A stretch of 64,000 nt of DNA, from NCBI RefSeq assembly GCF_002005165.1, contig NZ_CP019699.1:310001-374000 (forward strand), in the 5' to 3' direction. The stretch comes from Novibacillus thermophilus (GTDB lineage Bacteria; Bacillota; Bacilli; Thermoactinomycetales; Novibacillaceae). Every line of letters starts with the position of its first letter. Position 1 is the stretch's first letter. The notes beneath the pieces were generated by a model, which was given only the letters and a program-made list of their open reading frames with translations, had not been told where the DNA came from and did not search any database. A program made the position numbers and the translations under genes. This document shows positions 3,305 to 9,966 of this stretch, piece after piece.

Positions 3305-3777
3305 GTGGTCAGAACCTGCTGCTGGAAGGAAAATCCGTCGAGTTCCGCCCCATGGCGGAAGGGGACATTCCGGCCATCTCCGAAATAGAAACGCTGTCCT
3401 TCACAACGCCGTGGACGGAGGAGGCGTTTCGCCGGGAATTGAAACACAATCCGTTTGCCTACTACACCGTTGCTACACACAGGGAGCGCGTCATGGCTTA
3501 TTGCGGTGTGTGGCTGGTTGTCGACGAGGCGCACGTGACAAACGTCGCTGTGCATCCAAAGTTCCGGGGAAAAGGGATCGGGAAACAGCTGTTGACGTAC
3601 GTCATGGCCTTTGTAAAGGGAAACGGGGCGGACAGAATGACCCTGGAAGTGCGCCCGTCAAACAGAGTCGCCCGCCGTTTGTACGAGAGCCTCGGTTTTG
3701 TTCACGAAGGCACCCGGCCCAACTACTATCCGGACAATGACGAAGATGCGTGGATCATGTGGGTGAATTTAAAATGA
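3286..3777 (+). CDS. rimI: Ribosomal protein S18-alanine N-acetyltransferase RimI
   Basis: 163 residues of the GNAT fold. The acetyl-CoA loop is seen in [15 protein letters not shown], followed by [19 protein letters not shown], the usual RimI pattern. RimI acetylates the N-terminus of ribosomal protein S18. It lies between tsaB and tsaD as in B. subtilis (ydiC-ydiD-gcp). GTG 3286 starts the longest frame; the first 20 residues are not conserved in the family as I know it, so the real start could be somewhat downstream. Confidence 0.9.
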
Positions 3778-4763
3778 AGACCATATTGGCCATTGAAACG
3801 AGTTGTGATGAGACGGCTGTCGCTCTAGTTCGCGACGGGAAGGAATTGCTCTCCAATGTCGTGTCCTCCCAAGTAGAGATTCACCGCCGGTTCGGTGGGG
3901 TCGTGCCCGAAGTCGCTTCAAGGCGTCACGTCGAACAAATGACGTTCTTGCTGGAAGAAGCTTTGCAGCAGGCTCAAATTAAAGCGGAAGAAGTGGATGC
4001 GGTCGCAGTGACGCAGGGACCGGGATTGGTTGGCGCATTGCTCATCGGCGTCACGGCAGCCAAAACGCTAGCCTACTCTCTCGGTGTACCCGTCATTCCC
4101 GTCCACCATGTAGCCGGGCACATTTACGCCAATCAACTCGTGGGAGAGATGCAGTTTCCCCTTGTCTCCCTCGTCGTTTCGGGTGGACACACTGAACTCA
4201 TTTTGATGGAGGATCATTACGATTTCGAAAGGTTGGGACAAACACGGGACGACGCGGCCGGAGAAGCGTACGACAAAGTTGCGCGGCTGCTTGAACTGTC
4301 GTATCCCGGAGGGCCGGTCATCGATCAGCTGGCTCAAAAAGGGAAGGTCACTTACAACTTCCCTAGGGCGTGGTTAGAGCCGGGGTCCCTCGACTTCAGT
4401 TTCAGCGGCTTGAAGACAGCGGTCAAGAACGCCATCCAATCAGAACAAGAGGTCGTCGTTGAAGATGTGGCTGCCAGTTTCCAAACGGCGGTTCTTGACG
4501 TGCTGGTGGAAAAAACGCGCCGAGCGGTGGAACAGACCGGTGTCCGGCAGCTGATCGTCGCCGGTGGCGTATCGGCGAACACGGAGCTGCGCCGGCGGTT
4601 GCAGTCGTACGCCCGAGAGACGGGTGTCACATTGTCCCTTCCCCCCCTTGAATTGTGCACAGACAACGCGGCGATGATCGCAGCTGCCGCCTATTATGCA
4701 GAACAAAAAGGCATAAAGGCCGGCCTGGATTTAAACGCAGATCCGAGTCTGCCCCTTGAATGA
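3774..4763 (+). CDS. tsaD: tRNA t6A37 threonylcarbamoyltransferase TsaD
   Basis: 329 residues. The N-terminal motif is [10 protein letters not shown], and the metal-binding pair sits in [10 protein letters not shown], with [15 protein letters not shown] before it and [14 protein letters not shown] plus CTDNAAMIA near the end. TsaD is the catalytic subunit that transfers the threonylcarbamoyl group to A37. ATG 3774 overlaps the rimI stop as ATGA, the tightest coupling possible, and gives the standard N-terminus. A terminator follows at 4826, then the DnaA-box cluster. Confidence 0.97.
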
Positions 4764-4825
4764 ATGCTCTGTAAAAAGTGGATGGTCTCCCTTTCCATCC
4801 CGACACCGTTGTTCAAAAACAGGTT

Positions 4826-4850
4826 ACGGCTTAGTTTAAGCCGTTTTTTT
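4826..4850 (+). terminator. Intrinsic terminator of the tsaE-tsaB-rimI-tsaD operon
   Basis: Stem ACGGCTT (4826-4832) / AAGCCGT (4838-4844) with a 5-base loop, running into seven T residues. Confidence 0.88.
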
Positions 4851-4861
4851 GTGGGTAATTG

Positions 4862-5042
4862 TGATCCACAGCCTCCCTAAAGCTGTGGATCATGTGGAAA
4901 GTAGCGATGGAATCAGTCGGGAAAAGGATTAATTTTTCCACAAAAACAGACACGGTGATCCCCTTCTGGCTGTGGATAATGTGGATAAAACGGTGGATAA
5001 CTGAAAAAACACGATTATTTTTGTGGATAAGGTTGTGGATGA
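4862..5042 (+). promoter_or_regulatory. DnaA-box cluster between tsaD and the ydiF homologue
   Basis: Eight 9-mers match the DnaA box TGTGGATAA (reverse TTATCCACA). Perfect copies lie at 4971-4979, 4980-4988 (directly abutting) and 5022-5030. One-mismatch copies lie at 4884-4892, 4992-5000 and 5034-5042 on the plus strand and at 4862-4870 and 4934-4942 in reverse. The 4862 and 4884 boxes form an inverted pair. A reading frame is open through the cluster but gives a Trp-rich artefact made of translated GTGGAT repeats. Such clusters away from oriC titrate DnaA or control genes; there is no dnaA or dnaN nearby. Confidence 0.88.
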
Positions 5043-5068
5043 CGAGATTGGGATATAAAGGGGTGAAA

Positions 5069-7291
5069 ATGGGGATTGTAAATAACGCAGAACGAGATGA
5101 GAGAGGCGGGAACCTGGTGCGTCGCATCGTGCTGTTATTCAGTGTCTTTTTGGCTATATCCTCCTTTTTTCCAACCGCATACGCGCAACATCATTCCCGC
5201 CCACAATCCGTGACCGTGATCTCGATTCCCGGTCTTTCTTTTGCTCATTTGGAACATGCAGACCTCATCCCCCATTTTAAACGTTTGGTGGATGAGGGGA
5301 GCATTGGGGCAATGAATTTACGCACAGCTGGTTCTGATACACTGGCGAACAGCTACGCCACGTTAGCGGCCGGCCGGCGCGTGACGGTTCCACAGCCGGA
5401 ACCTTTTTACCAACTGAACGAAACGTTTCAGGGGCGTCCAGTGTCAGCGTGGATAAGTGAACGCATCGGAATCACCCCGCGTTCAGGGACGGTCTTTCCG
5501 AACCTCGTTCCGTTTGCCGAGAAAAATCAAGTAGGCGCCATGCACGTTCAACAGATCGTGCTCGGCGAGGTGTTGAGACAGGCAGGCCTTGGCACTGCCG
5601 TTTGGGGAAACGCCGATTGGGGTGAAGAACAGGTACGGTTTGCTCCGTTTTTGTCCATGAACCGTGATGGGCACACCGTGGAAGCTGCAGTCGACGACCG
5701 AGTGCTCGTCACGGCGAAAGGTTTTCCTTTCGGGGTGAAGACGAATTACGCTTACGTACTGGATGAGGTGAGGCATTCTGCCGCAGAGCTTCGCGTTGTG
5801 GAGTTAGGGGATTTGTACCGCTTGCAGCGAGAAGCTGCAAAGATGACGGAACAACGCGCGAAGGCCGTGGAGCAGGAGATCCTCCACGAGGTTGACCGAT
5901 TTCTGCAACAATTTTTGGCGACGTTGTCGCCGGGGGACGTCGTCTGGATTATCTCCCCTTACACCCAACAGTCTCACCCCAAGTACAAGTCCCAGCTGGC
6001 CCCGGCGATCTGCTATCGGGAGGGCCAGGATGGAGGGATCCTGTATTCCCCTACGACACGCCGCGTCGGGATTATCGCCAATATCGATTTTGCTCCGACG
6101 GTGCTCGAAACGTTCCAGATTCCAAAACCTGCTTGGATGGACGGTCGGCCAATCACTGTGACAGACGGGGAGGAGAAGGACGCATTCTGGGAGACGCTGG
6201 AACAAGTGGAGACCGTGTTTCATCTCCGGCCTTACGTCATATACGCTTATGCCCTGTACCAGGTCGTGGCGTTCATCATAGCTCTCGGACTGCTCCTGGG
6301 CAAAAAGACCAGGGGGACAGGATTAGTGCAAATTGCGCTGTTGGCCAGCATTGTGACTCCTTTTTTGTTTTTAGTTCTGGCTGCCGTGTCGCCGTTCTCG
6401 TACCGGCTGTTTCTAGTTCTCTGGGTCTTTACAGCTTTGCTGATGGCACTCTCGTTAAAAAGGCTTCCGACGGTTCCCCTTTTTTTTATGCTCGGATTGG
6501 TCGGGTTTGCCCCGGTCATCGTGGACGGTCTTCTTGGCGGTCACTTGATTCGCCAGTCCTTTCTCGGCTACGACCCGATTATCGGGGCCCGTTATTACGG
6601 CATCGGAAATGAGTACATGGGCGTTGTCATCGGTGCTGTCTTATTAATGGTTGCAGCTTGGCTAGAGTGGAAACGTCCGACGGGGCGCTGGGTGAAGATC
6701 GGGACGGCTTTTTTGTTCGTTTTTTTGGTCCTTTACTTTGCTGCCCCCTTTTGGGGGACGAACGCAGGAGGGGCTTTGGCGGCTTCCGCCGGGTTCGGGG
6801 TAGCGTATGCCCGCTTTTTTCACTCGCGGATGGATTGGCGTTTTTGGCTCGCTTTTGCCGCGTTGGGCGTAGCGGGTGTCAGTCTGTTGTTCATCATGAA
6901 TGTGGTGTTAGACGTATCGGCCCCGTCTCACATCGGACAGGCGTTCGGACACTTGCTGAAAGGAGATATCGCACAAATCGTCGACATCGCTTCCCGCAAA
7001 TTGGCGACGAACGTTCGGTTGATCAAAGGTTCGCTGTGGGGGCGGGTGTTTTTTGTTTCCCTTTTGGCCATGGCCGTGCTCATTATTCAACCCCTTCGCG
7101 GGATACGTTGGCTGAAGACGCGTTATCCTTACATGTTCCACGGTTTTACCGCTATTCTCGTCTCGGCCCTCAGCGCGCTCGTCTTCAACGATTCAGGCAT
7201 TGTCTCCGCAGCGACGGCTATCGCCTACGTCGTCATCCCGCTGTTGTTGATTGTTTGCCGGGAGTGGATGCCCCCCTACGAAAGGTCCTGA
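5069..7291 (+). CDS. Polytopic membrane protein with an N-terminal alkaline-phosphatase-like ectodomain
   Basis: About 740 residues. After a charged n-region comes a signal segment (IVLLFSVFLAISSFF ending TAYAQ), then about 400 exported residues that resemble the alkaline-phosphatase/phosphodiesterase fold (NSYATLAAGRR, and RVGIIANIDFAPTVLETF), then nine or ten membrane segments containing the motifs GARYYGIGNEYMG, GTNAGGALAASAG and FNDSGIVSAATA. I recognise the family only as alkaline-phosphatase-like membrane proteins of unknown function. The usual metal ligands are not evident. ATG 5069 has AAAGGGG five bases upstream; GTG 5117 is an alternative. The 3' end overlaps the convergent ABC-F gene by 16 bases. 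Confidence 0.75.
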   Translation: MGIVNNAERDERGGNLVRRIVLLFSVFLAISSFFPTAYAQHHSRPQSVTVISIPGLSFAHLEHADLIPHFKRLVDEGSIGAMNLRTAGSDTLANSYATLAAGRRVTVPQPEPFYQLNETFQGRPVSAWISERIGITPRSGTVFPNLVPFAEKNQVGAMHVQQIVLGEVLRQAGLGTAVWGNADWGEEQVRFAPFLSMNRDGHTVEAAVDDRVLVTAKGFPFGVKTNYAYVLDEVRHSAAELRVVELGDLYRLQREAAKMTEQRAKAVEQEILHEVDRFLQQFLATLSPGDVVWIISPYTQQSHPKYKSQLAPAICYREGQDGGILYSPTTRRVGIIANIDFAPTVLETFQIPKPAWMDGRPITVTDGEEKDAFWETLEQVETVFHLRPYVIYAYALYQVVAFIIALGLLLGKKTRGTGLVQIALLASIVTPFLFLVLAAVSPFSYRLFLVLWVFTALLMALSLKRLPTVPLFFMLGLVGFAPVIVDGLLGGHLIRQSFLGYDPIIGARYYGIGNEYMGVVIGAVLLMVAAWLEWKRPTGRWVKIGTAFLFVFLVLYFAAPFWGTNAGGALAASAGFGVAYARFFHSRMDWRFWLAFAALGVAGVSLLFIMNVVLDVSAPSHIGQAFGHLLKGDIAQIVDIASRKLATNVRLIKGSLWGRVFFVSLLAMAVLIIQPLRGIRWLKTRYPYMFHGFTAILVSALSALVFNDSGIVSAATAIAYVVIPLLLIVCREWMPPYERS

Positions 7292-9195
7292 TCCTCAGCC
7301 AGTTCGCTCCAGCGGTTCAGTTCCTCGTCCAACTGCCGCCTCAGCTCTTCCAACTCCCGCTGCAGGCGGGACGATTTTCGGTAATCCATGTAAACGTCGG
7401 GTTGAGCGAGGCGTTGTTCTCTTTCGGCCACATCGTTTTCTAGCTGCTCGATAAGCTGTTCGCTTTCAGCCAGCAGCTGTTCTCGCTGGCGATTTTTGTG
7501 ACGTTGACGCACTACCTCGCTGTGTGAGCGTTTTGGGGTTTGGGTTTTCGTATCGGGTTTTGCTTGGGCGGTCAGCGCCGCTTTTTTGGCAGCGTAGTCG
7601 TTGTAGTTTCCGATGTAGGTGGAAAAGCCGTCGGTTGACAGTTCGAAGACGCGCGTTGCCACCTTGTTGATAAAGTAGCGGTCGTGGGAAATGAAGAGGA
7701 GTGTGCCCTCGAACTGAAGCAACGCCTTTTCCAGCTGCTCTTTGTGGTATATATCCAAGTGGTTGGTCGGTTCGTCTAAGAGGAGCAAGTTGCTTTTGCG
7801 CAACGCTAATTCCGCGAGGCAAAGGCGCGCTCTTTCTCCTCCCGACAGTTGTTCGACGCGTTTAAAGACGTCGTCGCCCGTAAACAGATACTGTCCGAGC
7901 ACGGATCGGATCGTGTGTTCCGTTTCTCGCGGGTAGCGGTCCCACAGTTCGTCCAGCACTGTTTTGTGCGGGTGAAGGTGCCTCTGCTCTTGATCGTAGT
8001 ACCCGATGGACACGTTGGTTCCAAGCTGGACGGTTCCGGAAAGGGGAGGCAACAGCCCGGCCACAGTCTTTAACAGCGTCGTCTTCCCGATGCCGTTCGG
8101 TCCGACGAGTGCCACGCGGTCCTTTCGTTTCAACCGGGCTTGCAGTTTGCGGCATAACGGCTTTTCACGCGTGTACCCGATGGTCACATTCTCTAGGGTC
8201 AACACGTCTTGCCCGCTCACCGAGCGAACGTCGAAGTGAATCGCCGCACACTTGCGTCCGGTTTGCGGGGGCTTAATCCGCTCCATTTTATCCAGCATTT
8301 TTTGCCGGGCCTGGGCCCGTTTTGACGTAGAGGCCCGGGCGATGTTTTTTTGAATGAAAGATTCCATCCTTTGTATTTCTTCCTGTTGGGCGGCGTACGC
8401 CTTTTCCAGGCGAGCCTGCTCGGCGTCTCTCTGTCGGACGAAGCGGGTGTAGTTCCCGCTGTAGACAGTCAGCGATTCGCGGTCGAGTTCCCAAATGGTG
8501 TTCACGAGGGCGTCTAAGAAAGAACGGTCGTGGGAGACGATGAGCAGGGCGCCCGGATACGTTTGCAAGAAGTTTTCCAACCATTCTAGTGTGGCGATGT
8601 CCAGGTAGTTCGTCGGCTCGTCGAGCATGAGTAGGTCAGGTTGCTTGAGGAGCAGTTTCGCCAGGGAGAGTCGCGTTTTTTGACCGCCGCTGAGTTGTGA
8701 CACATACGTCTTGTGCGGCGGGTACTCTTTCAGCCCAAGGCCGCTTAACACGCTGCGGATACGGGCTTCATAACTGTATCCTCCGGCTTTTTCAAACGTT
8801 TCCTGTCTTTCGGCGTACCGTTCCATCACGCGGGCATAAAGCTTTTCATTGGCGAGAACACTTGTATCGCTCAACTGTCGTTCCAGTTCGCGCAGCTCGC
8901 GCTGCATCTTTTGGATGTGGGAAAATACGGTCAAACACTCGTCCCACAGTGTGCGATCGCTGGACAGGTCGGTCTCTTGGGAGAGATAACCGAAGCTCGC
9001 TCCTTTTGTCCAGTGGACGGTGCCGCCGTCCTGTTCCCGTTCACCTGCCAGCAATTGAAGCAAGGTCGACTTGCCGGCGCCGTTCACACCGACGAGGCCG
9101 ATGCGTTCACCTCTCTGTATGCGAAAGTCGATGTCGTCGAAAACGGTCTCCGCTCCGTACGATTTCGTCAATCCTTTGCCTTGCAGTAACAGCAT
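7276..9195 (-). CDS. ydiF: ABC-F family ATPase (YdiF type)
   Basis: 639 residues with two nucleotide-binding domains and no membrane segment. Domain 1 has GVNGAGKSTL, QLSGGQKTRL and LLMLDEPTNYLD; domain 2 has GPNGIGKTTL, QLSGGERARL and LLLLDEPTNHLD. A charged linker separates them and the last 100 residues look like coiled coil (REQLLAESEQLIEQLENDV). ABC-F proteins act on the ribosome, in translation regulation or antibiotic protection; which applies here cannot be told from sequence. ATG at 9195 has AGGAG upstream and starts exactly at the family N-terminus; the frame extends upstream without support. It sits next to the tsaD region as ydiF does in B. subtilis, but inverted. Confidence 0.93.
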   Translation of the reverse strand: MLLLQGKGLTKSYGAETVFDDIDFRIQRGERIGLVGVNGAGKSTLLQLLAGEREQDGGTVHWTKGASFGYLSQETDLSSDRTLWDECLTVFSHIQKMQRELRELERQLSDTSVLANEKLYARVMERYAERQETFEKAGGYSYEARIRSVLSGLGLKEYPPHKTYVSQLSGGQKTRLSLAKLLLKQPDLLMLDEPTNYLDIATLEWLENFLQTYPGALLIVSHDRSFLDALVNTIWELDRESLTVYSGNYTRFVRQRDAEQARLEKAYAAQQEEIQRMESFIQKNIARASTSKRAQARQKMLDKMERIKPPQTGRKCAAIHFDVRSVSGQDVLTLENVTIGYTREKPLCRKLQARLKRKDRVALVGPNGIGKTTLLKTVAGLLPPLSGTVQLGTNVSIGYYDQEQRHLHPHKTVLDELWDRYPRETEHTIRSVLGQYLFTGDDVFKRVEQLSGGERARLCLAELALRKSNLLLLDEPTNHLDIYHKEQLEKALLQFEGTLLFISHDRYFINKVATRVFELSTDGFSTYIGNYNDYAAKKAALTAQAKPDTKTQTPKRSHSEVVRQRHKNRQREQLLAESEQLIEQLENDVAEREQRLAQPDVYMDYRKSSRLQRELEELRRQLDEELNRWSELAEDQDLS

Positions 9196-9354
9196 CGTGA
9201 TTCGCTCCTCTGTTTCTTTCGTATAGTCTACAGGATCGTCAAAGCGGGAACAACCGGAGTTCGCAAAAGGGCATCCACTTTGGCACGCGGTAGCAGTAGA
9301 CAGGGAATCGAGGTACAATCGAATTAAATGGCAGGTTAAGAGGGTGAATGTGAC

Positions 9355-9966
9355 GTGGATAAGCGGGAATTGCGCCAGGCGTATCTGTCCAGACGCCGCG
9401 AGATGTCGCTCGATGCGGTAAAGCGTTCGTCGCTGGCCATCTGCAAGGACATCTCGTCGACAGCGTGGTTTCAACGGTCTAAACGGTTGCTCATGTACAT
9501 GCCCATTCGCCGGGAGGTCGACTTACGTCCTTTAATGGACGTAGCGTGGAGAAAGGGGAAGACCGTGTATTTGCCGAAAGCTGACCCAGTCACGCATGCG
9601 ATGGACGCGTACGCTGTCCACAGTCTGGACGAACTGAAGGCAGGGGCGTACGGGATTTTGGAACCGCCGGCAGATGCAACGAAAGAAGCCGACCTTGAAA
9701 AACTGGATTGCGTGTTCATCCCGGGAGTCGTCTTCGACCGGCAAGGCTATCGCATCGGCTACGGCGGCGGATATTACGACCGGTTTTTGCCGAGATTGAC
9801 GTCATCGACACTGCTGATCGGAGTGGCGTACGCTTGGCAAGTGGTCGAACGCATTCCGCGCGATGCGTACGACGAGCCCCTCCACGTACTGGTGACGGAA
9901 AAGGAAGTCCTGACGTTCTCACTCCCAACGTTCACGAAACATTCACGCCGCACACGTCCTGAATAG
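9355..9966 (+). CDS. 5-formyltetrahydrofolate cyclo-ligase
   Basis: 203 residues. The family pattern is clear: [10 protein letters not shown] at the N-terminus, [40 protein letters not shown] with the glycine-rich nucleotide loop, and a final [11 protein letters not shown]. The enzyme uses ATP to convert 5-formyl-THF to 5,10-methenyl-THF, feeding the one-carbon pool that purine synthesis draws on. Start is GTG 9355. It lies between the ABC-F gene (divergent) and rex. In B. subtilis the homologue (yqgN) is elsewhere, so this position is a local difference. Confidence 0.93.

Follow-up and report, generated by a model that had tools for sequence, protein, structure and literature searches.

Among the DnaA-box clusters that lie outside oriC, the closest described relative of the locus considered here is the gcp/ydiF region of Bacillus subtilis, DnaA binding region 4, which contains 10 sites (PMC4447404). 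Its Kd for DnaA is 0.15 uM with ATP and 0.33 uM with ADP, next to 0.16 and 0.30 for the dnaA-dnaN region of oriC, and 16-fold more of its DNA was recovered with ATP-DnaA at 55 nM; of the high-affinity B. subtilis regions, gcp-ydiF and one other show the strongest preference for ATP over ADP (PMC4447404). In the passages of PMC5295017 and PMC13220808 that deal with these clusters, citing Okumura 2012, deletion of all six extra clusters is described as leading to early initiation, the single clusters as mattering little, with a strong effect only upon six-fold deletion, and one re-inserted cluster, at various locations, as partly relieving that deletion.

Here we describe a dense array of DnaA boxes downstream of tsaD (gcp) in a window of 64,000 nucleotides, the whole stretch of Novibacillus thermophilus DNA that was analysed. 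The locus itself is a further case of the known cluster type; what is new is the layout. Our main reading, to which we assign a probability of about 0.7, is that the array is the orthologue of the gcp-ydiF cluster and acts as a decoy mimicking oriC.

The array and its gene neighbourhood

The array follows tsaD, its conserved upstream neighbour (3774-4763, plus strand; TIGR03723 match of 443 bits, above the cut-off), and a hairpin resembling an intrinsic terminator in the gap between the two (4826-4844, plus strand; an 8-bp stem, then TTTTTT). Beyond it lie a membrane/alkaline-phosphatase-like gene (5117-7291, plus strand; a weak Pfam SGSH_C match below the cut-off) and, on the opposite strand, a ydiF homologue coding for an ABC-F ATPase (7276-9474, minus strand; mechanical limits of the reading frame, the true start being probably near 9200). 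The membrane/phosphatase-like gene likely starts with GTG at 5117, 75 bp past the last box, behind a ribosome-binding site at 5100-5109, and has no homologue among the 23 relatives checked. For comparison we used a genome of 4,215,606 bp (G346), which we take to be B. subtilis 168 and refer to as B. subtilis below; its ydiF is 46% identical to the homologue in the window. The preliminary description had rightly placed a membrane protein gene between tsaD and ydiF, the sole extra gene relative to B. subtilis, and had wrongly regarded the ydiF homologue as inverted: tsaD and ydiF converge in both genomes (L233).

Boxes were scanned with the 9-mer TTATCCACA; a box on the minus strand reads TGTGGATAA on the plus strand. 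Nine boxes with at most one mismatch each occupy 193 bp (4850-5042). Five of them form a core on the minus strand, placed by the box scan and the layout in relatives, with offsets counted from the first: 4971-4979 (offset 0, perfect), 4980-4988 (offset 9, perfect, abutting the former in the manner of boxes 7/6 beside the oriC trios), 4992-5000 (offset 21, one mismatch), 5022-5030 (offset 51, perfect) and 5034-5042 (offset 63, one mismatch). The other four, from the box scan, carry one mismatch each and lie upstream: 4850-4858 (minus strand, TTACCCACA), 4862-4870 (plus strand, opposite in orientation to the core boxes), 4884-4892 (minus strand) and 4934-4942 (plus strand, TTTTCCACA). The boxes at 4862 and 4884 are the left and right arms of an inverted pair, which is part of a perfect inverted repeat with 11-bp arms (TGATCCACAGC/GCTGTGGATCA) around a 9-bp centre (4862-4892). 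Eight of the nine boxes had been noted before within 4862-5042, with three perfect ones, two of them abutting, and one inverted pair, and all are present at those positions; the box at 4850-4858 is the addition. The entire 64 kb has 25 boxes with at most one mismatch, where 10.3 would be expected; these 193 bp account for 9 of them.

Clustering of this kind is rare in the 3.63-Mb genome, where density was ranked by perfect boxes and by a profile model. It contains 64 perfect boxes in all, and groups of at least three within 200 bp are confined to four places: oriC (3627671-3627723), the tsaD locus, 3352156-3352216 and 3269450-3269601. The genome-wide comparison of local density that had been suggested for the cluster, run on perfect boxes, thus leaves few equally dense places, four in total with oriC included.

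Some further groups were set aside as candidates for additional clusters. Those at 3269450, 2228627 and 178737 adjoin transposase genes and are without the box grid described below. At 3269450-3269601, beside a gene for an IS256-type transposase and with the grid absent, and at 2228627-2228738, two to three perfect DnaA boxes each lie next to transposase genes. A pair of TTATCCACA and TTACCCACA, 27 bp apart and in opposite orientations, occurs in three copies (227084-227119, 601509-601544 and 3268240-3268275) and resembles a portion of some dispersed repeat or insertion element rather than an array.

Conservation of position and spacing

Loci of relatives were collected through TsaD protein homology alone and counted if at least 400 bp were available downstream (n = 123). 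At least four boxes within 200 bp were found downstream of tsaD in 54 of these 123 loci, as against none of 2460 shuffled copies. The clustered loci include those of Kroppenstedtia, Bacillus, Halobacillus, Planococcus, Lysinibacillus, Brevibacillus and Saccharibacillus, and reach into the Clostridia with Alkaliphilus and a Clostridiaceae MAG (loci L049, L054, L059 and L074). The Clostridiaceae locus (L074) fits tsaD, the boxes and then a convergent ydiF within about 220 bp. The gap retains its array even where genes have been inserted between tsaD and ydiF (Paenibacillus, Jeotgalicoccus), at a distance of roughly 200-350 bp from the ydiF 3' end. The suggestion that the position is conserved therefore holds across the Bacilli, and the comparison of tsaD-downstream regions, which could have spoken against it, speaks in its favour. 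Many genera, including much of one family of the same order (f6), are without the tsaD array, so it is either dispensable or replaceable.

These comparisons bear on a possible repression or tuning of the downstream membrane/phosphatase-like gene by DnaA. In other settings DnaA acts as a transcription factor, and the array sits between the tsaD terminator and the start of that gene; however, the array is conserved where the gene is absent and between convergent 3' ends alone, and no sigma-70-like promoter was found in 4700-5200. Repression, raised in the preliminary description for the reverse-strand boxes, is therefore quite improbable as the main function, and is retained as a possible local side effect.

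Conservation extends to the distances between boxes. Anchored on the abutting pair, in which TGTGGATAA starts at 0 and 9, the tsaD arrays follow a grid of -22, 0, 9, 21, 51/52 and 63/64 that is co-oriented with tsaD and recurs across the Bacilli as well as in one or more genomes of Clostridia. The window array matches it with its core at 0, 9, 21, 51 and 63, and the B. subtilis gcp-ydiF gap, where the cluster lies between convergent tsaD and ydiF, has boxes at -22, 0, 9 and 52. The array in N. thermophilus thus shows dense boxes in the gap between tsaD and a convergent ydiF together with the same box layout, and the counterpart in B. subtilis that had been named for it turns out to be an orthologous cluster with the same neighbours, place and grid. 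That DnaA would bind the N. thermophilus array is well supported by this orthology.

Among 43 distinct box patterns, a pair offset of 9 was seen in 33, 12 in 24, 22 in 18, and 42 and 43 in 15 each. The offsets 9, 12, 22, 42/43, 51/52 and 63 all exceed a jittered null (mean about 4; maximum 14 over any offset). In an alignment of relatives the invariant columns all fall inside the two abutting boxes, which means that the spacers have diverged while the inter-box distances were held within 1 bp across families. Since offsets -22, 0, 21, 31, 52 and 63 deviate from full helical turns of 10.5 bp by about 1 bp at most, most boxes of the array should lie on one face of the helix. In a genome of the same family (G001, L253:3611-3683), another intergenic stretch between tsaD and rex has four same-strand boxes spaced 21-22 bp apart, a two-turn period.

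From 29 tsaD loci we built a profile, R1, that uses sequence only and includes no origin sequence. It matches the window array at E = 3.4e-17, a score partly owed to the presence of 4850-5042 in the training set. In 28 Bacilli genomes for which both coordinates are listed, the R1 matches near tsaD are co-oriented with it in 28 of 28 cases, and 27 lie 60-372 bp downstream. Chance clustering, for which the AT-rich composition of the box is the one argument, is refuted by the rarity in the genome, by these tsaD-linked, co-oriented matches and by the shuffle test, in which none of 2460 copies reached four boxes within 200 bp vs 54 of 123 related loci; its probability is practically nil.

An origin layout without DnaA-trios

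The same grid is found at the origin. In the gap between dnaA and dnaN, boxes at 0, 8/9, 51-53 and 62-64 were present in 12 of 12 cases (11 gaps and that of N. thermophilus itself), and R1 matches this gap at E of about 1e-12 in one family (G226, G298). The origin pair directly follows DnaA-trios, for example as tagtagtagtagGGGC-box-box, and its placement corresponds to that of DnaA-boxes 6/7, by which the basal unwinding system is defined (PMC6669920, PMC8287927, PMC10201434). In two genomes a grid of 0, 9, 21 and 52 also precedes dnaA, so that the gene lies between this copy and the dnaA-dnaN copy, which face each other (L208 in G033 and L209 in G032).

What distinguishes the tsaD arrays from a functional oriC with its basal unwinding system is the trio track. 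Trio triplets in a single frame were counted over the 40 nt that precede the pair: there are 3-6 at oriC loci and 0-3 at 41 tsaD arrays. The count is crude, as AT-rich flanks reach values of up to 3. No DnaA-trio run was found beside the abutting pair of the window locus (L091), with a count of 0 in those 40 nt; the box layout is that of the origin and the run of trios is missing. As far as sequence can tell, the tsaD array is the box scaffold of the origin minus its unwinding track, given a grid equal to that of oriC and the absence of trios. A cryptic or secondary replication origin would agree with the shared grid; the lack of a trio run by the abutting pair, and of dnaA or dnaN nearby, makes it very improbable, and we reject it on account of the missing trios. 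The interpretation given in the preliminary description was sound on the orthology of the cluster, its conserved place and its rarity; it erred on the inversion of ydiF and missed the identity of the grid with that of oriC.

A second array between fliS and secA

The grid also occurs elsewhere in the N. thermophilus chromosome. At 3352154-3352221 (L004:4155-4222), between a fliT-like gene and csp-hpf-secA, a second array has its core at 0, 9, 21 and 52; R1 finds it independently of training, at E = 1.6e-8. It is 277 kb from oriC, on the other arm from the tsaD array. Within the same order, 15 of the loci that were read (L004, L193-L197, L199-L201, L203-L205 and L210-L212) have a csp-linked array with a core of 0, 9 and 21. 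In other genomes R1 matches between fliS and csp (G267, of Paenibacillus type), near csp (G219) or near fliS (G087). The B. subtilis counterpart of this region (L263) has scattered boxes only. This place is absent from the B. subtilis clusters named in PMC4447404. As one genome (G009) carries both the tsaD and the csp array on one arm, we do not claim that the two are placed as strict left-right mirror images. In the literature searched, to which Okumura 2012 and Ishikawa 2007 did not belong, we found no description of the grid shared with oriC or of the fliS-csp array, and we assert no priority.

The recurrence of the grid is relevant to plain titration, according to which any dense set of boxes suffices and the spacing merely reflects shared ancestry. 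The partial relief of the six-fold deletion by one re-inserted cluster at various locations, as related in the passages cited at the outset, would fit such a role. Against it, the distances are kept within 1 bp across families although the spacers have diverged, and the grid recurs at oriC and at the fliS-csp place, which is not homologous to the tsaD locus. Plain titration is thus unlikely to be the whole account: a passive sink should not require fixed spacing, and the grid may therefore do more than titrate.

Proposed function

We return to the reading of the array as an oriC-mimicking decoy. Its core copies the dnaA-dnaN grid of oriC (abutting pair, +21, +51/52 and +63/64, head to tail and nearly all at whole turns), for which reason DnaA, preferably in its ATP form, should assemble on it much as at the origin. 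Because the DnaA-trio strand is absent beside the abutting pair, no unwinding would follow. Lying 315 kb from oriC, the array would be duplicated soon after initiation, which would double the DnaA bound and lower the free ATP-DnaA available for re-initiation. The array is thus probably a decoy of great age, which sequesters DnaA and in this way contributes to preventing a premature start of replication. Given the identity of the grids and the missing trios, we infer that competition with oriC for DnaA is the most economical mechanism; DnaA binding and restraint of initiation in N. thermophilus, and a grid that serves origin-like assembly, are likewise inferred.

A different possibility is an element similar to datA or DARS, in which the grid would assemble DnaA into a particular oligomer and thereby alter the nucleotide state of the protein, by ATP hydrolysis or ADP release, instead of merely binding it. 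The conserved grid, which a passive sink does not need, is consistent with this, as are the dependence of datA and DARS on box orientation and spacing and the ATP-over-ADP preference of gcp-ydiF (16-fold at 55 nM; PMC4447404). On the other side, no equivalent is known in B. subtilis, where IHF, Hda and DiaA are absent, and the layout fits oriC, not the DARS double boxes with their gaps of 2-3 bp. We consider this alternative rather doubtful.

A broader proposal, which we make tentatively and rate somewhat short of even odds, is that the extra-oriC clusters of Bacillota might not be random sinks. They could be copies of one nucleoprotein blueprint, the dnaA-dnaN grid of oriC minus the trios, which has persisted at a minimum of two syntenic places, tsaD-ydiF and fliS-csp-hpf-secA, from a time before Bacilli and Clostridia separated. 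ATP-DnaA would then form a defined oligomer on them, in competition with oriC or with an effect on the state of DnaA itself. The question bears on how Gram-positive bacteria limit re-initiation without Hda, datA and DARS. The B. subtilis clusters have so far been treated as modest sinks, and the shared grid leads to the hypothesis of an unwinding-dead mimic of the origin. It also bears on which box features cause the preference for ATP-DnaA, left open in PMC4447404 for lack of regions, and for which comparative genomics now gives dozens of natural arrays. In addition, a simple layout model allows the annotation of such elements across Bacillota.

Comparison with known systems

The E. coli elements datA, DARS1 and DARS2 resemble the array as non-coding box clusters outside oriC, at conserved positions, in which orientation and spacing are important. 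However, they are enterobacterial and use IHF or Fis, and the DARS double boxes are separated by 2-3 bp whereas the central pair of the tsaD array has no gap. With the dnaA-dnaN half of oriC (incC, with the basal unwinding system) the array shares an abutting or 1-bp-overlapping pair, followed by equally oriented boxes at +52 and +63/64; it differs in having no DnaA-trios, a frequent box at -22 and no dnaA or dnaN context. The closest is the B. subtilis gcp-ydiF cluster, alike in gene neighbours, convergent order, box grid and an upstream box facing the opposite way. In comparison with it, N. thermophilus has a membrane-protein gene between the array and ydiF, a larger number of perfect boxes and, with no more than one mismatch each, additional boxes at +21 and +63.
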